A stretch of 17,692 bases of DNA from an uncultured Planctomycetaceae bacterium (GTDB lineage Bacteria > Planctomycetota > Planctomycetia > Pirellulales > JACPPG01), in the NCBI GenBank assembly GCA_945957305.1, contig CAMFLN010000004.1:1-17692 (forward strand). Direction: 5' to 3'. Shown here one piece after another: positions 1,805 through 16,821 of the stretch. The notes under the pieces are model-generated. The model ran no database searches, was not told the origin of the DNA, and worked only from the letters and a program-made list of their open reading frames with translations. Numbering within the stretch: position 1 is the stretch's first letter; every line of letters begins with the position of its first letter. Both the position numbers and the translations under genes were made by a program.

Positions 1805-2590
1805 ATGGCTGCACCTCGTGCCTTGATCTTGCGTGCCCCCGGCACCAACTGCGACGTTGAAACGGCGCACGCCTTCGAACGTGCTGGCGCAAGCGCGACG
1901 CGATTGCATGTCAATCGCGTGCTGGAGAATCCGCGCACCCTCGACGAATACCAAATCCTGTGCATTCCCGGCGGCTTCAGCTACGGCGATGACGTGGCGG
2001 CCGGGCGCATCTTCGGCAATCAGATTCGCCATCACCTGGCCGAGCGACTGCACGAGTTTCGCGAACAGAACAAGCTCATCCTCGGCATCTGCAACGGCTT
2101 TCAGGTGCTATTGCGATCAGGGCTGCTGTTCGAGGACTTGGGCACGCCTGACAACCCTCCGGCGACGCTCGACTGGAACGACTCGGGCAAGTTCGAGGAT
2201 CGCTGGGTTTACCTGCAGGCCGGGCGCGGCCCGTGTGTGTTCTTTCAGGGCGTCGCGTCGATGTATTTGCCGGTCGCCCATGCCGAAGGACGCTTCGTGG
2301 TCCGCGATCAGCAGATCCTCAGCACTTTGGAAGCGCAAGGGCGCATCGTGCTACGCTACACTTCGGCCGGCTCTCCGCATCAGGGGACGGAGCAATACCC
2401 CGAGAACCCCAACGGCTCGACCGCCGGGATTGCGGGCATCTGCGACACGACGGGGCGGGTGTGCGGCTTCATGCCGCATCCCGAGCGGCACATTGATCGC
2501 ACGCAACACCCACGCTGGACCCGCGGCGAGGGCTCGCCCGACGGGGATGGGCTGCGCGTGTTTCAGAACGCGGTTGGTTACTTCCGCTAA
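1805..2590 (+). CDS. purQ: Phosphoribosylformylglycinamidine synthase subunit PurQ (glutaminase)
   Basis: PurQ is the class I glutamine amidotransferase that releases ammonia for PurL. The 261-residue protein opens with ALILRAPGTNCDVE, has the PGGFSYGDDVAAGRIF oxyanion-region motif at about 55-70, the nucleophile Cys96 in LGICNGFQ, and the other catalytic residues His225 and Glu227 in FMPHPERH. The length is on the long side (many PurQ are about 225-230), with extra sequence in the middle and at the C-terminus (GEGSPDGDGLRVFQNAVGYF). The ATG at 1805 is 7 bp after the purL stop, so the two are almost certainly co-transcribed and made in equal amounts. The small adaptor PurS is not seen in the window. 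The gene ends 30 bp before the convergent spoVG. Confidence 0.96.
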   Translation: MAAPRALILRAPGTNCDVETAHAFERAGASATRLHVNRVLENPRTLDEYQILCIPGGFSYGDDVAAGRIFGNQIRHHLAERLHEFREQNKLILGICNGFQVLLRSGLLFEDLGTPDNPPATLDWNDSGKFEDRWVYLQAGRGPCVFFQGVASMYLPVAHAEGRFVVRDQQILSTLEAQGRIVLRYTSAGSPHQGTEQYPENPNGSTAGIAGICDTTGRVCGFMPHPERHIDRTQHPRWTRGEGSPDGDGLRVFQNAVGYFR

Positions 2591-2620
2591 CGACTTCTTG
2601 CACCGACCCGCGATTGACTA

Positions 2621-3283
2621 TTAAAAGATACCGGCGCCGAAACCGCCGCGGCTGTGACCGTCGAGCGGGGCGCGTTCGGCCGGCTGTTGCGCGGGGGCCT
2701 TGTGCGGCGCCCGCGGTTCGTGCACGGCCGGCTCCACCTTGGTTTGCTCGACTTTCGGGTGTTCGGTCTTCGCCTGTTCGGCCACCTTGGGGCGCGGGTG
2801 ATGATGCGGTTCAGGGCGTCCCTCGCGCGGGTGCGTGATCGTACGCGCGGCCGGACGCGAGTAATCGTCGTCAAAGTCGTCGTACCGCGACACGTAGCCC
2901 GGCAGCTGCGATTGCCGCAGCTCTTCGTGGTACGAGCTGATGACCTTGTCCTGGATCATTTCGCGGCAGCGCGAATTGATCGGATGGGCGATATCGGCGT
3001 ACAGCTTGGCGCGACCATCTTCGTCCTTGATCGCGCGGTCTTCTTTCAAGCGGTTGCCGCACTGGTTGCAGAATTGGGCTCGCAAGTGGTTCTTGTAGCC
3101 GCATTGCGGACAGTGGGACGTCAACTTGCGGCTGGGCATCGCGACGAAGGGCCCATTGGTCCCTTCGATGATCTTCAAGTCCCTAATCACGAAGCAGTCG
3201 TCCAACGTGATGGAACAGAACGCGTGCAGTCGCTCGCCGGCGACCTCTTCCATGAGCTTGATGCGAACTTCGGTGATTTCCAC
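2621..3283 (-). CDS. spoVG: SpoVG-family regulator with inserted zinc ribbon and long charged tail
   Basis: SpoVG proteins bind DNA and RNA and regulate division and development in Firmicutes; the role here is unknown. The two halves of the SpoVG fold are clear: [10 protein letters not shown]...[20 protein letters not shown]...[10 protein letters not shown] (residues 2-53) and [25 protein letters not shown] (98-122). Between them lies a zinc-ribbon-like insert with Cys58, Cys61, Cys72 and Cys75 (CPQC and CNQC). Residues about 135-220 are a disordered tail rich in P, H, K, E and A, ending GGFGAGIF. The total of 220 residues compares with about 95 for Bacillus SpoVG. I chose GTG at 3283 because AAGGAG lies 7 nt upstream and the family starts at this point; a TTG at 3313 would overlap the ispE stop. 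It lies 26 nt after ispE on the same strand, so it is probably co-transcribed. Confidence 0.9.
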
Positions 3284-3290
3284 GTCTGTT

Positions 3291-3296
3291 CTCCTT
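3291..3296 (-). promoter_or_regulatory. Shine-Dalgarno site that fixes the spoVG start
   Basis: On the minus strand the sequence reads AAGGAG, 7 nt before a GTG at 3283-3281. This near-perfect ribosome binding site, together with the usual SpoVG N-terminus, favours the GTG over the longer TTG start at 3313. The site sits in the short gap between ispE and spoVG, so spoVG would have its own translation start within the operon. Confidence 0.75.
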
Positions 3297-3309
3297 GCCA
3301 CTTTCTCGT

Positions 3310-4218
3310 TCAATTGGGCCCGGCGACCGCAAAAACCTGCGCAAACCCGCGGCTGCGCAAGGCGGCCGCCAACCGCCGAGCTTGTTTGGCGTGACGGCAG
3401 ATGCCGAAATAGGCGCTGCCGCTACCTGTCATCTGATGTCCGATAAAGTCAAAACGATTGAACTCTCCGCGCAGCTGCTCGATCGTGGGCGAGATCTCGG
3501 CCGCGGCCACTTCCAGCCTGTTGTGCAACCGGCGCCCAATGTCCGCGAGACAGCCCCGCCGCCACGCGTCGATCAACGGCTGCGCGCTATGCGGTACGGC
3601 GCTCGGCCGGCAATGGCGATAAACCTCGGCGGTCGACAACCCTGCCGGTGGCTTAACAATGACGAAGTACAGAGGTGGCATTTCGGCCAGGGGCATTACA
3701 TGCTCGCCGCGCCCCGTGCACAGCGCCGGGCGGGATGACAGGAAAAAGGGGACGTCACTGCCGAGCTGCGCCGCGATTTCGCTCAAGCGTTCCAGAGGCC
3801 AGTTGAGCTGCCAGCCGATATTCGCCGCCACGAGCGCCGCCGCGGCGTCGCTCGATCCGCCAGCCATGCCCGCTTCGAGGGGGACGCGTTTGACCAATTG
3901 CATCGTGGCGCCGGCGGTGATGCCTGCGGCGGTGCGCAGCAGGTGCGCGGCGCGTACTGCCAGGTTGTCATCGCCCAGAACAACCCTGGGAAATTGGCTC
4001 AAGCGGAGCGTGGCACGTGGGGGGTGCCATAAACATTGGCACCGGATGGCGCCATCCGCGGCGGGAGCAAAAGATAGACTGTCAGACAGCCTGACCGGAA
4101 CCATGAGAGTTTCGATCTCATGGAAACCGTCAGCGCGCTTGCCCAACACCTCCAGGAAGAGGTTTAACTTCGCCGGTGCCAGAACTGTGACAACGGACGA
4201 AGTTCGGCGAACGTGCAT
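3310..4218 (-). CDS. ispE: 4-diphosphocytidyl-2-C-methyl-D-erythritol kinase IspE
   Basis: IspE phosphorylates CDP-methylerythritol with ATP in the non-mevalonate (MEP) isoprenoid pathway; it is a cytosolic GHMP-family kinase. The 302-residue protein shows the N-terminal motif [22 protein letters not shown] with the catalytic Lys17, the ATP-binding glycine loop [17 protein letters not shown] (113-129), Asp155 in GSDVPFF, and the C-terminal GHMP motif [10 protein letters not shown]. Length and motif order are normal. The ATG at 4218 leaves 10 residues before the conserved core; a GGGAA sequence sits upstream. It is the first gene of a probable ispE-spoVG unit. The same two genes lie close together in Bacillus, where purR and yabJ sit between them. 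The divergent neighbour starts 285 bp away. Confidence 0.95.
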
Positions 4219-6294: not shown

Positions 6295-6466
6295 GGCGAG
6301 TCCGCGACCTCCAGAAAACGAATAACGACGCCGTCAGGCGAGTAGACACGGCGAGGAGCCGGCGAAACGTCTTATTCTCCGGACACGGGGGGGTGTCGTC
6401 AAATGGGGCTGGTATTCGACCGACAGGAGACTTTGAATCAGAGATTTTCGGGGCGTGCGACTGGTT

Positions 6467-6475
6467 TGGTAGACT
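6467..6475 (+). promoter_or_regulatory. Possible extended -10 promoter, leaderless start
   Basis: The sequence TGGTAGACT fits an extended -10 element (TGn followed by a TATAAT-like TAGACT). It ends only 6 nt before the ATG of the small membrane gene at 6482, and no Shine-Dalgarno is visible, so the mRNA could be leaderless. No good -35 is seen. A similar TGC-TAGACT lies before pabA. This is a pattern match only. Confidence 0.3.
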
Positions 6476-6481
6476 TGCGGC

Positions 6482-6739
6482 ATGTGGAAGGCACTCGCAT
6501 GGACCGCCGTGTTTGCGTCGATCTGGGGAGTAGCCATCACTCTGCCAGTAGCCTGGAGGACGGAGAGTTACCCCGTGCCTGGATTCACTCGCTATGGGAC
6601 CCAGGAGCAGCAACGCGAGGTCGTGACATTGCCAGCGACGTCACCATCCACCGGGGAAATCGCCTTTCGCGGCATCGGGGGATCGCTTGCGTCCGTATTC
6701 GCTTGGGCCTCCTACCAAGCGATGCGTCGCGCGCGGTAG
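6482..6739 (+). CDS. Hypothetical small membrane protein
   Basis: I do not recognise this 85-residue product. It starts MWKALAWTAVFASIWGVAIT, a hydrophobic stretch at about residues 3-24 that could be a signal anchor or membrane helix, continues with a polar section containing YPVPGFTRYGTQEQQREV, and ends with a second weakly hydrophobic section GIGGSLASVFAWASYQAM and a basic tail RRAR. That suggests a small two-helix or anchored protein. There is no clear ribosome binding site, but a TGG-TAGACT element lies just upstream. The gene sits between divergent glyA and convergent fmt, and a stem-loop follows 24 bp after its stop. An overlapping longer frame (6403-6777) has a composition unlike a protein. 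Coding status is plausible but unproven. Confidence 0.5.
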   Translation: MWKALAWTAVFASIWGVAITLPVAWRTESYPVPGFTRYGTQEQQREVVTLPATSPSTGEIAFRGIGGSLASVFAWASYQAMRRAR

Positions 6740-7787: not shown

Positions 7788-7858
7788 AATAGTGGGCAGA
7801 GGGCAGCAGGCGGAAAGCAGTGAAGAAGAGTAGTCGGTAGTCAGTGGCCAGTAGTTAG
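7788..7858 (+). repeat. Dispersed heptad repeat, copy 1
   Basis: The copy begins with AATAGTGGGCAG (7788-7799), passes through a purine-rich middle, and ends with four 7-bp units: TAGTCGG, TAGTCAG, TGGCCAG, TAGTTAG (7831-7858). It matches copy 3 (12825-12897, opposite orientation) over its whole length and copy 2 (11431-11477) at both ends. Because 7 is not a multiple of 3, the TAG units give stops in more than one frame. It lies 5 bp upstream of the fmt start codon. Confidence 0.75.
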
Positions 7859-7889
7859 TAGCGGCGATTTGCTGTTCCGGGCGGAGCCA

Positions 7890-7912
7890 CCCTCTCGTGC
7901 CAGGAGAGAGGG
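7890..7912. repeat. CCCTCTC hairpin next to heptad repeat copy 1
   Basis: CCCTCTC (7890-7896) and GAGAGGG (7906-7912) form a perfect 7-bp stem with a 9-nt loop containing TGCCAGG. A similar CCTCTCC...GGTGAGG hairpin follows heptad copy 2. It lies 21 bp beyond the def stop and may act as an intergenic RNA structure or attenuator between def and fmt; there is no T-run for intrinsic termination. Confidence 0.45.
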
Positions 7913-7933
7913 GTAGTACGCCAGCGCGAAAGC

Positions 7934-8515
7934 TTACGTGCGCAGCGCTTCCAGTTCGCTCAGTCGGGCTGAGATCTTTTCGTCGTCCGGAATCTCGCCG
8001 CGCTGGCGGCGGTCGGCGAACTCGATCTCGAACTCCTCGAGCGTGTCTTTCAGCGACAAGCGAGTGGTCGGGCTCAAGCGGTCAATGAAAAGCACGCCAT
8101 TCAAATGGTCGGTCTCGTGCTGCACCGCGCGGGCGAACAGGCCATCGATCGTCTCTTCGATTTCCTGTCCGCTCAGGTCGTAGGCGTTGACCGTGATCGT
8201 CTCGGGGCGGCGCACTTGGGCGTACAAGCCCGGCAGGCTCAGGCACCCTTCCTCGGCCTCGGCCGATCCTTTGGGGTCGCTCAGCACCGGGTTGATAAAG
8301 ACCTGCTCCTCTTCGGCTTCGGCCGGGTCGCCGGTGAGGTTCAAGACGAACAGCCGGTAGGGCAAGTCAACCTGGTTGGCGGCCAGCCCAATCCCTTTGG
8401 CCTGGTACATGAGGTCGAACATTTCGCGGACAATTTTCCGCAGGTCGTCGTCGACGCGTCGCAGGGCCTTCGAAGTTCGTCGGAGCGTGGGGTGGGGAAA
8501 ATGGATGATCCGCAA
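7934..8515 (-). CDS. def: Peptide deformylase Def
   Basis: Def removes the formyl group from the N-terminal methionine of new proteins; it is a metal (Fe or Zn) hydrolase. The 193-residue protein has all three family motifs: GIGLAANQ (41-48, with Gln48), EGCLS (metal ligand Cys91), and QHETDHLNG (metal ligands His133 and His137, catalytic Glu134). The start is an unusual TTG at 8515; GGGAGG lies 9 nt upstream and the resulting N-terminus MRIIHFPHPTLR is the family norm, so I trust it. The C-terminus runs about 45 residues past the last motif. It precedes fmt on the same strand and is divergent from the ferredoxin gene; a TATAAT promoter candidate lies upstream. Confidence 0.95.
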   Translation of the reverse strand: MRIIHFPHPTLRRTSKALRRVDDDLRKIVREMFDLMYQAKGIGLAANQVDLPYRLFVLNLTGDPAEAEEEQVFINPVLSDPKGSAEAEEGCLSLPGLYAQVRRPETITVNAYDLSGQEIEETIDGLFARAVQHETDHLNGVLFIDRLSPTTRLSLKDTLEEFEIEFADRRQRGEIPDDEKISARLSELEALRT

Positions 8516-8524
8516 AGCGGGAAG

Positions 8525-8530
8525 CCTCCC
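8525..8530 (-). promoter_or_regulatory. Shine-Dalgarno for the TTG start of def
   Basis: On the minus strand GGGAGG precedes the TTG start codon at 8515 by 9 nt. No ATG or GTG nearby would give the conserved Def N-terminus, so this site supports a non-ATG start. A weak start codon behind a strong binding site could hold expression at a set level. Confidence 0.65.
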
Positions 8531-8574
8531 GGGGGGTCGAAGTATCAGCTCAAGTGATTGAAGTTATTGTGGGA

Positions 8575-8603
8575 ATTATAGTTCTGGCGGCCCCCCGGTA
8601 GAA
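8575..8603 (-). promoter_or_regulatory. Candidate sigma-70-type promoter for def-fmt
   Basis: On the minus strand a perfect -10 hexamer TATAAT (8580-8575) lies 17 bp after a weak -35-like TTCTAC (8603-8598). Transcription would start near 8568, giving a leader of about 50 nt before the TTG of def that includes its GGGAGG. The -10 is good and the -35 poor. Confidence 0.45.
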
Positions 8604-8853
8604 GTCCGTACAGCGGGGGCGGTCCAGCGTAGAAGTGTCCCCTGCCGCGGACTCCACCGCCGTGCCCGCCGCTCTCGGCTGCAGGGCAGGCGCGGTTGGC
8701 GATTGCCTGATTTCCTCCTATGATTGGAAGTCTGGCGGTCCGAAGCTCGTCCAAGTTCCGTAAGTTGCCACTGTAGCCGCCGATAAATTGCGGTGGGTCG
8801 TCGCCCGCCCTGTGTGCTCCGTTCGTCGTTCTGTTTTCGAGGATTCGATCGTC

Positions 8854-9246
8854 ATGGCCAAACAAGGCCCTCGCAAGAAGCTGCCGAAAGAACTCGCCGT
8901 CATCAACGCCGACAACTGCACCGGTTGCGAGGCGTGTCTGGAGGTCTGCCCTGTCGACTGCATCATGAAAGTGCAGCAGTACGACGCGATGTTCAATTTG
9001 CAAAGCTGGTGCGAAATCGACATCGAGCGCTGCGTCGGCTGCGAGGTGTGCGTGCACATCCCGCGCAAGAAGACCGATCCCTATGAATTGACGGTCTGTC
9101 CTTGGAACGCGATCGAAATGGTTCCCACCGAAGAGGTGGCGCAAGTCGTGGCCCAGATCGGCGGCCCGCCCGCCTACATCCAGGAAAACTGGGATCGCCT
9201 GGTGGGGACGGCGCAGCACCTGGCCGAGTTGAAGGCGAGCGGCTGA
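8854..9246 (+). CDS. Dicluster [4Fe-4S] ferredoxin with unusual second motif
   Basis: The 130-residue protein is a small soluble electron carrier. The first motif is standard: Cys22, Cys25, Cys28 and Cys32-Pro in CTGCEACLEVCPVDC, with an extra Cys36. The second has Cys60, Cys63 and Cys66 (CVGCEVC), but the fourth cysteine is Cys82 in VCPWNAIEMV, 15 residues later instead of the usual 3. By analogy with other dicluster ferredoxins Cys32 should complete the second cluster and Cys82 the first. Residues 91-130 form a C-terminal extension that may be helical (AQVVAQIGGPPAYIQENWDRLVGTAQHLAEL). The start at ATG 8854 follows GAGGA at 8839; an in-frame ATG at 8788 would add unconserved sequence. No redox partner gene lies beside it, so the electron donor and acceptor are unknown. 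Confidence 0.88.
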   Translation: MAKQGPRKKLPKELAVINADNCTGCEACLEVCPVDCIMKVQQYDAMFNLQSWCEIDIERCVGCEVCVHIPRKKTDPYELTVCPWNAIEMVPTEEVAQVVAQIGGPPAYIQENWDRLVGTAQHLAELKASG

Positions 9247-9282
9247 GCGCTCGCCACTTCGGAGTAGAAGAATTCGCGCCGT

Positions 9283-9312
9283 GGCCAGCGCACCCGGGTG
9301 CCCTCTTTGGCC
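9283..9312 (+). terminator. Two-part stem-loop after the ferredoxin gene
   Basis: The 12-bp perfect palindrome GCACCCGGGTGC (9290-9301) sits inside an outer stem of GGCCA (9283-9287) and TGGCC (9308-9312), starting 37 bp after the ferredoxin stop. It is a plausible transcript end or RNA-stabilising structure. There is no T-run, so termination is inferred from position only. Confidence 0.35.
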
Positions 9313-9434
9313 GCGTCGGCAAAATTCGTCCGGTTTCCGTCGCGCGCCGTCTTTCGACAGCGTGAATCAACCGGTATCTTCGTTTTTGCCGTCACCGGGA
9401 CCATTCACCCAACTCTTCGAATTCTTGCACTGCC

Positions 9435-10201
9435 ATGCACATCAAAGACGCGACGTTTCTGGTAACCGGGGGTGGGTCAGGCTTGGGAGCCGCGACGGTG
9501 CGCGAACTGGTGACGGCCGGCGGCCGAGCGATCATCGCCGACGTCAACGAGGAGGCGGGGCGCTCCTTGGCCGGCGAATTGGGTAACGCCGCGCGGTTTG
9601 TCAAAACCGACGTCACTGACGAAGCCAGCGTGCAGGCCGCCGTGGACGAGCCGTGCGGACGTTCGGCAATTTGCGCGGCGCGGTCAATTGCGCCGGCATC
9701 GGCATCGCGGCCCGCGTGCTGGGGCGCGACGGCATCCACGACCTGGGCGTGTTCGCCCGCGTGATTCAGATCAACTTGATCGGCACGTTCAACGTGATTC
9801 GTTTGTCGGCCGCCGCGATGGCGCAAGGCGAGCCGCTGGCCGACGGCGAGCGCGGCGTGATCGTCAACACGGCCAGCGTGGCCGCCTTCGACGGCCAGAT
9901 CGGCCAGGCCGCTTATTCCGCCTCGAAGGGGGGCGTGGTTGGCATGACCCTGCCCATCGCGCGCGAGTTTGCCAAGCTGGGCATTCGCGTCGTGACCATC
10001 GCGCCGGGCTTGTTCAACACGCCGATGATGGCCGCCCTGCCCGAAGAAGCGAAAAAATCGCTCGGCGCGCAGGTGCCGTTTCCGCCGCGGCTGGGCAATC
10101 CGAGTGAGTACGCGGCGCTGGTGCGGCACATCGCCGAGAACATCATGCTCAACGGCGAAACCATCCGCCTGGACGGCGCGATCCGCATGGCGCCGAAATA
10201 G
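9435..10201 (+). CDS. HSD10-like short-chain dehydrogenase (3-hydroxyacyl-CoA dehydrogenase type 2), frameshifted
   Basis: The reading frame is broken: residues 1-72 are encoded from ATG 9435 up to about 9650, and the rest lies in another frame from there to the TAA/TAG-side end at 10201. Adding one G at about 9650/9651 (GACGAG-CCGTGCGG to GACGAGGCCGTGCGG) restores a continuous 255-residue protein. That protein is a classical [11 protein letters not shown] cofactor loop at 11-18, Asp36 favouring NAD, NCAGIG at 85-90, Ser148 in NTAS, and Tyr161/Lys165 in YSASKGG. The stretch [27 protein letters not shown] and the end [13 protein letters not shown] closely match human HSD10, which oxidises short and branched 3-hydroxyacyl-CoAs. 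All catalytic residues are intact and there is no further damage, so I favour a sequencing or assembly error over a true pseudogene. Substrate is inferred from similarity only. Confidence 0.85.
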
Positions 10202-10358
10202 CTTTTGTGATCAACCGGCCAGTTCGCGCGGCGGCGATTGCGAGATTTTGATTAGTCTTGCGCAAGTTCGCTCATAAAGCTTGAATTCGGCCCTGCGCAG
10301 TTCTTACGCTTGCGCGTGACGCTGTAGAAATCAATTCCGCGCAAAGGCCCATCCCCTC

Positions 10359-11435
10359 ATGTCGACTGCCGATGTCAGCCGCTCCGCGCCGCAAGCATTC
10401 TCCGTGCGACGCGTGCTTCTCACGCTCATGCCAATTGTCGCCCTGCTGGGCGGCTACGTCGCTTACCAGCGCCACGCCTATCAGGCCGAAGCGCAACAGG
10501 AAGGGGAACGGCTGCTGCTGGGAACCTTGGGATTGGCAAAACCCACGAAGAACAAGCTCGACGCGCGTTTTGTCGATGCGGATGGCGATCTCGTGGCTGA
10601 CGCACCGCAAGATACTACGAAATGGATCGATCCCGATGTTTTGCACTTCTCCTACATTGCCGGCGAGGATGCGCGCCGGCAGCAAGATGTTTGGCAGCAA
10701 TTCTGCGAAGCGCTAGCCACAGCAACCGGCAAGAAAGTGGAATACTTGCTGCTTGACTCGCCCGAAGACCAGCTGCGCGCGCTGCTTGATGGCCGCTTGG
10801 AAATCGCGGGCGTGAATACCGGCAATGTCCCTACGGCGGTGAATGCCTGCGGCTTCGTGCCGGTTTCGACGTTGGGCGCCGGCGAAGGTTCGTTCGGCTA
10901 CGCGGTCAATTTCCTGGTGCCCGCCGGCAGCTCGCTGCAAAGCATCCAAGACGTGCGCGGCAAGACGATCGCGCTGACCGAGAAAGGAAGTAATTCCGGC
11001 TATAAAGCGCCGCTAGTGCTGCTGATGAGCGATTTCAATATCTTTCCGCAACGCGATTTCGATTGGGTTTACACGTTCGGTCACGAGGCGTCGATCAAAG
11101 GAATCGCCGCCGGCAAGTATCAGGTGGCCCCCGTCGCCAGCGACATGTTGGCCCGCGCGATCGCCCGCGGCGGGATTACGCCGGAACAGTACCGTGTGAT
11201 TTACGTCTCTGAGCGATTCCCCCCGGCGGCGCTGGGTTACGTCTACAACTTGAAGCCAGAGCTCGCGGCGAAGATCGCCGAGGTTCTAAAGACGTTTCCC
11301 TGGCAGGGAACGGCCCTCGAACAGGAATTCGCTCCGGCCGGCGATACGGAATTCGTGCCCGTGAATTACAAGAACGATTGGGCACTGATCCGCCGCATTG
11401 ACGATGCGATGGGCACGACGCACGTCGTCAAATAG
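10359..11435 (+). CDS. Membrane-anchored PhnD-type phosphate/phosphonate-binding protein
   Basis: The 358-residue protein belongs to the phosphate/phosphite/phosphonate ABC-transporter substrate-binding family (PhnD-like, periplasmic type 2 fold). An N-terminal helix at about 19-36 (LLTLMPIVALLGGYVAY) with basic residues before it looks like an uncleaved anchor, with no lipobox cysteine. Residues 73-81 read DADGDLVAD, a D-x-D-x-D-x3-D calcium-loop-like pattern. The binding domain starts near DVLHFSYIAGEDARRQQDVWQQF (93-115), with LLDGRLEIAGVNTG, DVRGKTIALTEKGSNSGYKAP (198-218, the PhnD ligand-loop region) and a C-terminal lobe ending about residue 315. No permease or ATPase gene is adjacent, so it may serve a distant transporter or act as a sensor. 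The stop codon overlaps heptad repeat copy 2. Confidence 0.85.
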   Translation: MSTADVSRSAPQAFSVRRVLLTLMPIVALLGGYVAYQRHAYQAEAQQEGERLLLGTLGLAKPTKNKLDARFVDADGDLVADAPQDTTKWIDPDVLHFSYIAGEDARRQQDVWQQFCEALATATGKKVEYLLLDSPEDQLRALLDGRLEIAGVNTGNVPTAVNACGFVPVSTLGAGEGSFGYAVNFLVPAGSSLQSIQDVRGKTIALTEKGSNSGYKAPLVLLMSDFNIFPQRDFDWVYTFGHEASIKGIAAGKYQVAPVASDMLARAIARGGITPEQYRVIYVSERFPPAALGYVYNLKPELAAKIAEVLKTFPWQGTALEQEFAPAGDTEFVPVNYKNDWALIRRIDDAMGTTHVVK

Positions 11436-11477
11436 CGGGCAGTAGACAGTTGCCAGTAACCGGTAGTTAGTCGTTGG
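11431..11477 (+). repeat. Dispersed heptad repeat, copy 2 (short form)
   Basis: It starts with AATAGCGGGCAG (11431-11442), whose TAG is the stop codon of the PhnD-type gene, and continues directly into 7-bp units TAGACAG, TTGCCAG, TAACCGG, TAGTTAG, TCGTTGG (11443-11477). The purine-rich middle found in copies 1 and 3 is missing, so this is a shorter or deleted version of the same element. Confidence 0.7.
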
Positions 11478-11506
11478 ACGGGAGAGTACAGCGGAAAAAT
11501 TCGAAT

Positions 11507-11527
11507 CCTCTCCGCTGGCGGGTGAGG
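11507..11527. repeat. CCTCTCC hairpin next to heptad repeat copy 2
   Basis: CCTCTCC (11507-11513) pairs with GGTGAGG (11521-11527) at six of seven positions around the loop GCTGGCG. It stands about 30 bp after the heptads, comparable to the hairpin after copy 1, which suggests both parts belong to one composite intergenic repeat. Confidence 0.4.
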
Positions 11528-11818
11528 GGAAAGCGTTCACGACTTGTCGGCTGCAGGCGGAGCGCTGTCGGCAGTTCAAAACTGCGGTGGCCGTTGCGCG
11601 GCAAGTCTTCGCCGTCGTCGAGTAACGATTCGCAGGCAGCCATCGGGCGCAAAAAGAATGCCACCAGGTCGCTTCGGAAAGCAACCTGGTGGCGGCGCGG
11701 GAAGAAAGGTTCGTGCACAACGGCGTCCGTGGACGCAGTTAGTCTCGGTGCGGCGTATCGTGATGCGGATTCAAACGGATTGCCGGCGACGGAAACTAAT
11801 GTCGTGGAACCAAAGGTC

Positions 11819-11910
11819 AGGTCGAAATCGAGGGTGACGATCAACCTGACGCCCGGCACTATAGAGTGCCAGCATTCGATTCGTATCAGCGTCAAGTTAG
11901 ATTTTGACTT
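11819..11910. repeat. Long imperfect inverted repeat with central hairpin
   Basis: The arm at 11819-11839 and the reverse complement of 11890-11910 agree at 15 of 21 positions, and three of the six differences would be G-U pairs in a plus-strand RNA. The centre holds GGCACT-ATAG-AGTGCC (11855-11870), a perfect 6-bp hairpin nearly concentric with the outer arms. A competing stem is GTCAGGT (11816-11822) with ACCTGAC (11844-11850). It could be a foldback (MITE/REP-like) element or a structured 3' RNA; no transposase or target duplication is visible. Confidence 0.5.
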
Positions 11911-11952
11911 AATCCACTTCGCCGGTTGTCGCCCCACCTAGGTTGGCGAACT

Positions 11953-12681
11953 TTAACGATGGGCCTTGGCCTTTTCGGTCAAGCGAGAGACCACGGCCGC
12001 GAATTCCTTGCGCGCCGCGGTGTAGCCGTCGACAGTTTTCTTATCGCTGCCGCGCAGATAGTCGAGAATGATTTTCTCGGCGCCGACAAACTCATCCGCG
12101 ATCTCGGCGACGGCCGCCGCGATGCGCACGGGTATGCTGGCGACGCCGTTGGTATCGCCGTGAAGTAAGTCTCCCTGCGCGACGGTCAAGCCGCCGACGC
12201 GCACCGGCAAGCCGACGTGCAGCATGTGGCAGTAGCCGTGCGAGCAGATCGTGCCACCGGTGAAGACCGGATAGCCAATCGCGCGGACCTGGTCGAGGTC
12301 ACGCCCCGCGCCGCTAGTGATCAGCCCGACCGAGCCGTAGGCCTGATACGTCGAGCACATGATTTCGCCGAACGTGGCCGCGACCGGAGGATCGTCGAGA
12401 TCCTGAAAGACAATCACGGCGGGGCCGGGCAATTCGCCGAACGTCGCCAATTGCTTTTCGATCGAGCTGTAGGCGTCGCCGCCGGCGGGCGGAGCGTCAC
12501 TACGGAAAGCCGTGGTGCAGGCAAAGCCCACCATCGGCGGCATTTCTGGGAAGCAGGACTTGATACGACCATCCATGTAACCGCGATTGCGCGGGATGAC
12601 ATCGAACAACTCGATGACGTTGCAGATCGTGGGCGTGTCGAACTTGCGAAGCTTGTCGAGCGTGGCGGCGGTAATGGCCAT
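11953..12681 (-). CDS. RraA-family protein (HMG/CHA aldolase-like)
   Basis: The 242-residue protein belongs to the RraA / demethylmenaquinone methyltransferase-like family, which includes RNase E inhibitors and class II pyruvate aldolases acting on 4-hydroxy-4-methyl-2-oxoglutarate-type substrates. Visible motifs are DTPTICNVIE (near 15-24), GEIMCSTYQAYGSVGLITSGAGRDLDQVRAIGYPVF with the conserved Gly-Arg-Asp used in metal and substrate binding, HVGLPVRVGGLTVAQGDLLHGDTNGVASIP, and a C-terminal helical extension ending KAKAHR. It is longer than E. coli RraA (about 160), so a metabolic lyase-type member is more likely than an RNase E regulator. I chose ATG 12681 with a weak AGG 9 nt upstream; an alternative TTG lies at 12690. 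It follows pntB on the same strand after 218 bp, separated by a repeat, so it is probably independent. The exact substrate cannot be read from sequence. Confidence 0.85.
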   Translation of the reverse strand: MAITAATLDKLRKFDTPTICNVIELFDVIPRNRGYMDGRIKSCFPEMPPMVGFACTTAFRSDAPPAGGDAYSSIEKQLATFGELPGPAVIVFQDLDDPPVAATFGEIMCSTYQAYGSVGLITSGAGRDLDQVRAIGYPVFTGGTICSHGYCHMLHVGLPVRVGGLTVAQGDLLHGDTNGVASIPVRIAAAVAEIADEFVGAEKIILDYLRGSDKKTVDGYTAARKEFAAVVSRLTEKAKAHR

Positions 12682-12824
12682 GTGCGGCAACCTGTTTCCG
12701 AAAAGAAGGCATTTACGACATGGGCAAAACTACCAAGCAGGCGCCGCGCGTCAAGCGACGAGGCACCCCGACCACAACAAGGAAGCATTTGCGGCGGCGA
12801 CAGGGAGCATTCTTGATCGACTAT

Positions 12825-12897
12825 CTAATTACCGGCTACTGACTACTAACTACTCTCTTCACTCTTCCTCACTGCCCTCCGCCCGCTGCCCACTATT
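12825..12897 (-). repeat. Dispersed heptad repeat, copy 3
   Basis: Read on the minus strand it begins AATAGTGGGCAG (12897-12886), 2 bp after the pntB stop, passes through a purine-rich middle resembling copy 1 (GGGCAGTGAGGAAGAG), and ends in four 7-bp units TAGTTAG, TAGTCAG, TAGCCGG, TAATTAG (12852-12825). Copies 1 and 3 are about 71 and 73 bp long and share end, middle and heptads. Confidence 0.75.
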
Positions 12898-14966: not shown

Positions 14967-15522
14967 ATGATTTTGCTAATCGATAATTACGATTCGTTCA
15001 CCTACAACCTGGTGCAGCGGCTGGGCGAGATTGACCCGGCGCTGGAACTTGAGGTCGTACGCAACGATCAGATTACGCTCGACGAGATCGAAGCGCGTGA
15101 GCCGACCCATTTGATCGTCTCGCCCGGCCCATGCACGCCGAACGAAGCGGGCATCTCGGTCCCTTGCATTGAACGCTTCGCCACCGAGATTCCGATCCTG
15201 GGCGTCTGCCTGGGACACCAATCGATCGGTCAGGCGTTCGGCGCCGAAATTGTCCGTGCCAAGCGGCTCATGCATGGCAAAACCGATCTGGTCTATCACG
15301 ATGGTCGTGGGCTTTTCGCTGGTCTGGAAAATCCGTTTCAAGCCACGCGTTATCACAGCCTCGTTATTCGACCCGGCACGCTGTCCGACGAATTCGAAGC
15401 CTGCGCCTGGTGCGATGGCCCCGATGGCGAGCGCGAGATCATGGGCATTCGCCATCGCCGCCTGCCGATTCACGGACTGCAGTTTCATCCCGAAAGCTTT
15501 CTCACGCCGCGCGGCTCGGACA
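14967..15522 (+). CDS. pabA: Aminodeoxychorismate/anthranilate synthase glutaminase subunit (3' truncated by adapter)
   Basis: The product is the class I glutamine amidotransferase that feeds ammonia to chorismate for folate (PabA) or tryptophan (TrpG) synthesis. The sequence has MILLIDNYDSFTYNLVQ at the start, VSPGPCTPNEAG (52-62), the nucleophile Cys81 in GVCLGHQSIGQAFG, MHGKTDLVYHDGRGLF (102-117), RYHSL, and His174/Glu176 in LQFHPESFLT. MHGKT and EIMGIRHR resemble PabA more than TrpG, but many bacteria use one protein for both. Genomic sequence stops after Asp185 at the embedded adapter; the last few residues are lost and the adapter adds VSYTHLTLPT. The TAA at 15575-15577 after the adapter, preceded by codons for TPSGKK, may be the real C-terminal end. 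The partner synthase subunit is not in the window. Confidence 0.93.
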
Positions 15523-15554
15523 CTGTCTCTTATACACATCTGACGCTGCCGACG
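15523..15554 (+). other. Embedded Illumina Nextera adapter (chimeric junction)
   Basis: 15523-15541 read CTGTCTCTTATACACATCT, the reverse complement of the Tn5 mosaic end, followed by GACGCTGCCGACG (15542-15554), the reverse complement of the Read 1 side Nextera adapter. The encoded peptide VSYTHLTLPT is a known sign of this contamination. It interrupts the end of pabA, so sequence left and right of it may not be contiguous in the genome. Confidence 0.98.
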
Positions 15555-15582
15555 CGACGCCCAGCGGCAAGAAGTAAACCGC

Positions 15583-16821
15583 ATGCTCTCCGTCGACGAA
15601 GCGCTTAAGCTGATACTCGCCCGCGCGCAGCCGCTTGCGGCGCGTACCATGGCGCTGGCCGATGTCGATGGATTGATTCTGGCCGAGGATGTTGCCAGCC
15701 CCATCGATTCGCCTCCTTACGACAAATCGATCGTCGACGGTTACGCGGTGGTTGCGGCGGATTTGGCCACAGGCGAAGCGCGGTTGAGAATCCTCGAAGA
15801 AGTCGTGGCGGGCGAGGTGCCACGTGCGACCGTCACGGCAGGAACCGCGACACGGATCATGACCGGCGCGCCAATCCCTGCGGGCGCGGACGCCGTGGTA
15901 ATGGTCGAGCGGACTTCGCATCACGCGCATACCGACGCCCACCATTTAGGCACCGTCTTCATTCGCGATGCTGACGTGCGCGCAGGGCGCAACATCTTGC
16001 GCCGTGGCACGTCGCTGTGTGCCGGGGACGTCGTCCTCCGCTGTGGCGCCCCGCTGCGAGCCATCGAAGTGGGAATTCTGGCCGAAGTGGGACGGGCGGT
16101 CGTCGCGGCGGTGCCGCGCCCTCGTGTCGCGATTCTGGCGACCGGCAACGAGTTGGTCGAACCGGATCAAACGCCTGCAGCGGGACAGATACGCAACTCG
16201 AACGGACCACTGCTGGCTGCGGCGGTGCGTGCCGGTGGAGGCGATCCCCTGCTGCTGGGCATTGCCCGCGATTCCGAGGAGGACCTGCGCGCGAGAATCG
16301 CCAGCGGATTGCAGGCTGATGTGCTAATCCTTTCCGGCGGAGTCTCGGCAGGCGTGCTGGACCTGGTGCCAAGCATTTTGAAAGAGCTGAAAGTCGCAGA
16401 AGTCTTCCACAAGCTGCGACTCAAGCCCGGGAAGCCGATGTGGTTTGGCGTCGCGCAGCGCGAAGCACATCAAACGCTCGTCTTCGGCCTGCCGGGAAAT
16501 CCGGTCAGCAGCTACGTCTGTGGCGAGTTGTTCGTCCGTCCCGCACTCGAGCGACTGGCAGGAAGGCCGGGGCACGGTTTGCGTCGCCTCCGCGCTACTT
16601 TGGCGCGTGATGTTCAGCAGCGCGGCGATCGGCACACGTTTTTGCCGGCCGTTTGTCACCTGTCGGACCAGGATCAGGCCCGCGCGGAACCGGTCACCTG
16701 GCATGGCTCGGCAGATTTACGTGGTCTGACAGCGGCCAATGCACTGTTGTCACTCCCACCGGGGGACCGTGTGTTTCATGCGGGCGAAATCGTTGATCTT
16801 GTCCTGCTTGATCAAGCGTAG
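15583..16821 (+). CDS. moeA: Molybdopterin molybdenumtransferase MoeA
   Basis: MoeA inserts molybdate into adenylylated molybdopterin, the last step of molybdenum cofactor synthesis. The 412-residue protein has SPPYDKSIVDGYAV (43-56, with the conserved Asp52), GTATRIMTGAPIPAGADAVVMVE (87-109), the MoCF-binding-like domain with VAILATGNELVEP, GQIRNSNGPLL and LILSGGVSAGVLDLVP, then RLKPGKPMWFG and VFGLPGNPVSS, and a C-terminal beta domain with WHGSADLRGLTAANALLSLP. The glycine loop reads GGVSAGVLD where most have GGVSVGxxD, and the acidic residue is kept. ATG 15583 matches the family start; the frame is open further upstream into the adapter, so a slightly earlier start cannot be excluded. It lies 28 bp after the adapter; lnt follows on the same strand. 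Confidence 0.95.
   Translation: MLSVDEALKLILARAQPLAARTMALADVDGLILAEDVASPIDSPPYDKSIVDGYAVVAADLATGEARLRILEEVVAGEVPRATVTAGTATRIMTGAPIPAGADAVVMVERTSHHAHTDAHHLGTVFIRDADVRAGRNILRRGTSLCAGDVVLRCGAPLRAIEVGILAEVGRAVVAAVPRPRVAILATGNELVEPDQTPAAGQIRNSNGPLLAAAVRAGGGDPLLLGIARDSEEDLRARIASGLQADVLILSGGVSAGVLDLVPSILKELKVAEVFHKLRLKPGKPMWFGVAQREAHQTLVFGLPGNPVSSYVCGELFVRPALERLAGRPGHGLRRLRATLARDVQQRGDRHTFLPAVCHLSDQDQARAEPVTWHGSADLRGLTAANALLSLPPGDRVFHAGEIVDLVLLDQA

Follow-up and report, generated by a model that had tools for sequence, protein, structure and literature searches.

Heptad arrays of fixed polarity at gene edges in an uncultured planctomycete and its relatives

In this study, we followed up three short repeats in a stretch of 17,692 nucleotides (hereafter the window, meaning the whole stretch) from contig CAMFLN010000004.1 of an uncultured Planctomycetaceae bacterium, whose genome, here called G000, is a fragmented bin of 4.55 Mb in 884 contigs and is 78% complete. 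A preliminary description of this DNA had presented them as an intergenic family built from 7-bp TAGTYAG units, and direct reading bore out the three copies together with their positions and sequences. We show here that they belong to a set of non-coding spacer arrays, which run outward from gene edges with a fixed polarity and often face each other across a gap. The earlier view had thus recognized a real dispersed family, while its polarity and its facing pairs had been overlooked.

Each copy is a graded array made of heptads throughout, in which GGGCAG-type units are followed, across an optional GA-rich linker, by TAGTYRG-type units (Table 1). The purine-rich middle that had been reported for two copies corresponds to the linkers of copies 1 and 3, and copy 2 has none, as had been said. 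The common end proposed for the family is present in all three; however, it is not a separate end but the first unit of the heptad zone itself (TGGGCAG AGGGCAG ...). Every copy abuts a gene boundary, as claimed: copy 1 begins 5 bp from the start codon of fmt, which lies on the minus strand, the stop codon of the PhnD-type gene is the TAG of the copy 2 head (11433-11435), and copy 3 starts 2 bp beyond the stop codon of pntB. Within the window, the tail pattern TAGTYAGTAGTYAG has 11 matches with up to 3 mismatches, where 0.60 are expected and none of 200 shuffles reaches 11; ten of these matches fall inside the three copies, as do all three occurrences of AATAGYGGGCAG.

The genes next to the copies are fmt, peptide deformylase, a phosphate/phosphonate-type substrate-binding protein and a transhydrogenase beta subunit, the last assigned by a match that is below the cut-off yet runs end to end. 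Among named relatives, the one that best matches the pntB protein comes from a Planctomycetia bin. A further neighbour, for which every match is below the cut-off, is putatively RraA-like.

Table 1. Positions and composition of the three heptad arrays in the window
Feature	Positions	Strand	Composition
Copy 1, whole	7788-7861	+	AATAG plus GGGCAG-type heptads, linker, TAGT-type heptads, last TAG
Copy 1, head zone	7788-7820	+	AATAG TGGGCAG AGGGCAG CAGGCGG AAAGCAG
Copy 1, GA-rich linker	7821-7830	+	TGAAGAAGAG
Copy 1, TAGT-type heptads	7831-7861	+	TAGTCGG TAGTCAG TGGCCAG TAGTTAG, then TAG
Copy 2, head	11431-11442	+	AATAG CGGGCAG
Copy 2, heptads (no linker)	11443-11477	+	TAGACAG TTGCCAG TAACCGG TAGTTAG TCGTTGG
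Copy 3, head zone	12872-12897	-	AATAG TGGGCAG CGGGCGG AGGGCAG
Copy 3, GA-rich linker	12853-12871	-	19 nt
Copy 3, heptads	12825-12852	-	TAGTTAG TAGTCAG TAGCCGG TAATTAG

Dispersal, polarity and facing pairs

Further genome copies, whose absence would have spoken against a family, were found: the head AATAGNGGGCAG occurs in 17 exact copies in the whole G000 genome, compared with 2 for the reversed control, and the two-unit tail TAGTHRGTAGTHRG with up to one mismatch occurs 104 times compared with 49. By eye, 11 of the 17 heads continue into TAGT-type units, 8 of them via a GA-rich linker, and the other 6 consist of the GGGCAG zone alone. Of these heads, 12 are placed between -5 and +11 nt from a called gene edge, and the other five at 45-159 nt. 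Genome counts, head distances and edge placement together confirm the dispersed intergenic family at gene boundaries that had been proposed. The exact tail pattern TAGTYRGTAGTYRG is found 83 times in the sister species G001, where its control has no match, and tail arrays there run to about a dozen identical units, which points to ongoing expansion. The corresponding counts in other relatives are 12 and 1 (G003), 2 and 1 (G002) and 0 and 1 (G004). Among 57 genomes of the order, 24 contain a second word, two units of AATGWCG, whose control matched once. The head pattern matches 39 of the 57 genomes, but mostly near the control level, and among the matches listed (29 loci) most have no heptads in their context.

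Gene edges were called with a simple, home-made gene caller, which was trained on G000 contigs and misplaces some start codons, and most of the array contigs were picked by pattern match. A lone array was counted as outward if its 5' end is closer to a gene than its 3' end; arrays within called genes or lacking a called gene on one side were excluded from this test (10 of 54 in G000, 1 of 35 in G001, 2 of 10 in G003 and 1 of 20 in G004). On this basis, lone arrays are outward in 22 of 26 cases in G000, again in 22 of 26 in G001, and in 8 of 8 in G003, and the AATGWCG arrays of G004 follow with 13 of 15. In G036 and G020, which represent another family of the order, 12 of 12 and 9 of 12 of all arrays in the loci examined are outward (the latter counted by eye), the exceptions being one tie and two arrays for which the closest called gene on the 5' side is 647 and 886 bp away. 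In the examined contigs of G000, 49 of 54 seed arrays are outside called genes, and in the loci examined none of 35 (G001), 20 (G004) or 10 (G003) is within one. Over the sets from these four genomes, the edge on the 5' side is a stop in 61 cases and a start in 44, with a median distance from the first recognized tail unit of 18 nt in G000 and 24 nt in G001. In several cases the array itself supplies the stop codon. TAG accounts for 18 of 35 array-adjacent stops in G000, compared with 138 of 424, and for 13 of 23 compared with 40 of 109 in G001, an excess that is partly trivial because some arrays provide the TAG. It had also been suggested that the heptads, by placing TAG in changing frames, act as stops in several frames. 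While this is true of the sequence, it is unlikely to be their purpose, as 44 of the 105 arrays that have an assigned gene on the 5' side are antisense at start-codon edges. In C81, C323 and C503 the array starts, by eye, shortly downstream of a -10-like box and before the ATG, and promoters may therefore also serve as edges.

Where two arrays are neighbours in one gap, a strict test gave 14 facing pairs, one tandem pair and none back to back. With relaxed seeds, all 35 pairs that lie on opposite strands with less than 300 bp between them are facing (16 in G000, 16 in G001 and 3 in G004), and among the matches listed for G036 and G020 we counted by eye, within 300 bp, at least 10 pairs that face each other and none back to back. 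Some gaps, for example in C225, C278, C298, C543 and C733, are almost filled by two facing arrays. The arms of a pair are mostly unlike, the mean rank of the partner among all arms being 0.38, 0.46 and 0.48 where chance gives 0.5, and the partner was the best match in 5 of 32, 0 of 32 and 0 of 6 comparisons. From ranks this near to chance it follows that most arms have not been copied recently from one another and are not constrained to pair, and that most were made separately. That arms are templated from each other in a hairpin was accordingly rejected for most pairs.

Two further observations concern the arrays and the gaps that hold them. In C73 (L146), the interiors between the facing arrays of gaps 2248-2524 and 6397-6600 share a stretch resembling GGGAAGCAACGNGTTCACGAACAGTGGTGA, which indicates that gaps carry other repeat families too. 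In the examined contigs of G000, position 6 of the tail heptads alternates between A and G, being the same in 27 of 94 pairs of adjacent units and in 40 of 62 two units apart, which hints at a 14-nt unit; this alternation is not seen in G001, where the counts are 73 of 133 and 61 of 99.

Recurrence at orthologous edges and its possible causes

Arrays recur at the same edges in the sister species. Coding flanks of 11 of 54 array edges in the examined contigs of G000 match flanks of G001 array arms, compared with 4 of 772 other edges (Fisher p 3.7e-11; 62 G001 arms compared). The G001 arms came from a genome-wide pattern search that was blind to the G000 gaps, save for seven loci from the window search. 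At 12 shared edges the G000 and G001 arrays are never each other's best match, and their words can differ: nine orthologous comparisons are listed, of which C81/L330 and C432/L330 may be opposite ends of one gap, and in C503 GGGCAG-type units stand where the orthologue has TAGTCAG, while C278 shows the reverse. The C278 gap (969-1077), inspected by eye, holds TAGT arrays in G000 and G003, with a GGCAG-like right arm in the latter, GGGCAG plus TAGT in G001, facing AATGATG arrays in G004 and only a degenerate right arm in G002. Arrays at the same edges with changed words suggest that they are renewed and not simply inherited. A protein-binding array had been considered earlier; a sequence-specific one is disfavoured, since orthologous gaps can hold different words.

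Our tentative explanation, which we consider possible rather than probable, is that this spacer DNA is renewed by a polarised copying process at the DNA level. The strand leaving a functional edge, that is a stop, a start or possibly a promoter, would carry heptads of the word currently used in the genome. A gap that holds an array would be fragile or prone to slippage, and breaks or stalls in it would be resected and then recopied by microhomology from other arrays of the genome, and every 3' end would be lengthened independently by one and the same strand of the word. The polarity would persist, since the 3' overhangs on both sides would invariably be of this strand. Successive rounds would wear the native spacer back to the functional edges and overwrite units, and a sequence-specific function would not be required. 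A reverse-transcriptase origin was set aside, as counts of RVT_1 and AATGWCG across the genomes are uncorrelated (Spearman 0.004); of the 7 genomes with the most AATGWCG, 5 lack RVT_1, which indicates that this enzyme class is not needed, and it was not found in the incomplete G000 genome either.

Several observations weigh against renewal by recopying. We observed no event of breakage, repair or copying among relatives that are about 72-87% identical in the compared genes, a distance too great for single events to be visible, and the model leaves unexplained why one strand of the word was chosen originally. The mean rank fraction of 0.38 for orthologous arrays at the shared edges is slightly better than chance and fits partial descent. 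By eye, the three gaps of the window have no such array in relatives (fmt 0 of 4, PhnD 0 of 2, pntB 0 of 4). Alike arms occur in three facing pairs of G000 (C73, C36 and C733), and two gaps of C381 (L200; about 1447-1755 and 3055-3370) are near-identical over about 313 bases, the array included, and lie inverted on the two sides of the gene at 1869-3053, which fits a local duplication. Finally, the intergenic DNA of the 21 largest contigs (54,043 bases, with C1 represented by its first 20,000) shows no excess of period 7, and at the gap edges of 20 contigs (286 edges) words show no asymmetry, apart from GTAGT, which favours start edges 15 to 4 (p 0.019, one of 15 tests listed). These unbiased samples indicate that arrays occupy a small minority of gaps.

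Plain simple-sequence repeats would offer another account, in which slippage expands chance heptads that are then inherited with a fast turnover of units, and coding constraint limits them to gaps. The long perfect arrays of G001, the recurrence at orthologous edges and the remaining likeness of orthologous arrays fit this idea, and for heptads it is slippage that Rehm et al. (2015; PMC4692102) cite as the explanation. However, slippage alone predicts neither one polarity at edges nor 35 facing pairs to none back to back, neither a head and word common to unlinked gaps nor the switch of word in one orthologous gap, and we regard it as unlikely. We consider it less likely still that arrays are maintained by selection at particular edges, where they would insulate, take part in mRNA processing or space translation, all of them tolerant roles in which the exact word would matter little. 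The recurrence at orthologous edges and the position of the C81, C323 and C503 arrays between the -10-like box and the ATG (by eye) would agree with this; however, start, stop and convergent edges are all in use, the three arrays of the window are missing from relatives, and words switch.

Below these in probability, and in our opinion improbable, is a miniature mobile element that is moved by a Y1-type transposase, as associated with repetitive extragenic palindromes (REPs), with facing pairs as two-ended copies and lone arrays as remnants. It would account for dispersed copies with a shared head and for the near-identical gap copies of C381, and REPs form inverted dimers too (PMC3733652). 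A Y1 transposase is present in 23 of 24 genomes with AATGWCG and in 20 of 33 without, and Y1_Tnp and AATGWCG counts correlate weakly over the 57 genomes (Spearman 0.38, p 0.004), both figures being uncorrected for kinship and genome size. However, the arms are unlike in most pairs, and the arrays are tandem direct heptads and not single stem-loops with GTAG or CGTC tags, lone arrays having no second arm. By eye, no heptad ends flank six Y1 genes, all of them from G001-G004, though upstream of one (L377) an array lies at a distance of about 300 bp, beside the adjacent gene. A mobile sequence had been considered earlier; one with matching inverted ends is therefore disfavoured. Least probable in our view is an element acting at the level of RNA or DNA structure, such as a hairpin, a terminator or a G-quadruplex. 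Pairing between facing arms would be possible, G-runs occur in the GGGCAG zone, and the Xanthomonas and Nostoc words form G-quadruplexes in vitro (PMC4692102). On the other hand, most facing arms do not match each other, many arrays are alone in their gap, and the window has no Rfam match. Moreover, GGG is found in the head zone only, and TAGTYAG and AATGWCG units, which have no G-runs, follow the same placement rule; G-quadruplexes are therefore not the general cause of this rule.

A bolder reading is a word-independent process, common to bacteria of several phyla, that would lay down 7-nt repeats in one polarity from functional edges into the gap, much as telomere repeats are added outward at chromosome ends. 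Facing arrays would then be scars of intergenic breaks at which both 3' ends were extended and joined, and a gap so treated would stay a hot spot following the current word of its genome. We offer this as a speculation and consider it unlikely as it stands. In 80 loci of mixed phyla (829 kb), which had been gathered for another purpose and include coding DNA, period 7 is the most frequent of periods 4-20 with 14 regions, followed by period 18 with 9. Some of these regions resemble facing pairs by eye, for example L072 in a Gemmatimonadetes bin.

Other features of the window

The intergenic region at 11644-11904, next to the presumed RraA-like gene, is conserved in G001 and G003, with 91-93% identity over 60-68 bases and 82-86% in a second block. 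Positions 11640-11720 have a predicted fold of two hairpins (z -3.42), and the region, which has no Rfam match, is possibly a terminator or a small RNA. In the fmt-def gap of G003 (L247, between 4105 and 4571), CACAGAG-type and GCAGAT-type repeats likewise face each other; by eye, their period is not 7. Finally, the stretch CTGTCTCTTATACACATCTGACGCTGCCGACG at 15523-15554, inside a trpG/pabA-type reading frame (14967-15608) and just before the next gene, corresponds to a Nextera transposase adapter, and is probably adapter carry-over or a false assembly join.

Relation to described repeats

Cyanobacteria carry short tandemly repeated repetitive (STRR) heptamers, which are tandem heptamers like the planctomycete arrays and differ from them in their words. 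In the preliminary description it had been said that short heptamers are known from cyanobacteria, and its author knew of no described family with this end. Five strings of our arrays have no match in the bacterial papers of the literature searched, a result limited to that literature; however, a published precedent for the placement had been missed. Rehm et al. (2015; PMC4692102) mention STRR heptamers in Calothrix and describe GGGAATC repeats in Xanthomonas and GGGGA(T/C)T repeats in Nostoc, which lie nearer to the neighbouring open reading frame on their 5' side, on the coding strand downstream of genes and on the non-coding strand upstream. The placement rule is thus already published for G-rich heptads of these two genera. 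Those repeats mostly lie between the same genes in two related species, with highly variable length and sequence, and one inverted pair is shown. The planctomycete arrays share with them the tandem 7-nt units, the mostly intergenic location, the outward placement and, except at the three sites of the window, the recurrence at edges of related species with variable sequence. They differ in having a tail without G-runs and a composite order of head, linker and tail, and the present work adds a count of facing pairs and a switch of word in one orthologous gap.

A second comparison is offered by the TAACTGA repeats of marine Beggiatoaceae, some Cyanobacteria and Bacteroidetes (MacGregor, 2015; PMC4679880), of which almost all in the Beggiatoaceae genome (147 of 170 sets in Table 1 of that paper) point toward start codons. 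These too are intergenic heptads close to start codons, with a word that has no G-runs, but the word is another one, and the planctomycete arrays use stop edges as often. REPs, described in PMC3733652 as short, dispersed, intergenic sequences with GTAG or CGTC tags, often found in inverted pairs and including examples from planctomycetes, are single tagged stem-loops, unlike the tandem heptads described here, whose arms seldom match.

Our findings bear on a question left by the one detailed study that we found (PMC4692102), namely why gaps in bacterial genomes gather heptamers and why these hug genes with one polarity. The TAGTYAG family parts this polarity from G-quadruplexes, and it shows that the place of an array can outlast its word. 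For one and the same gap, different changes are predicted by slippage, by recopying from other arrays and by selection.

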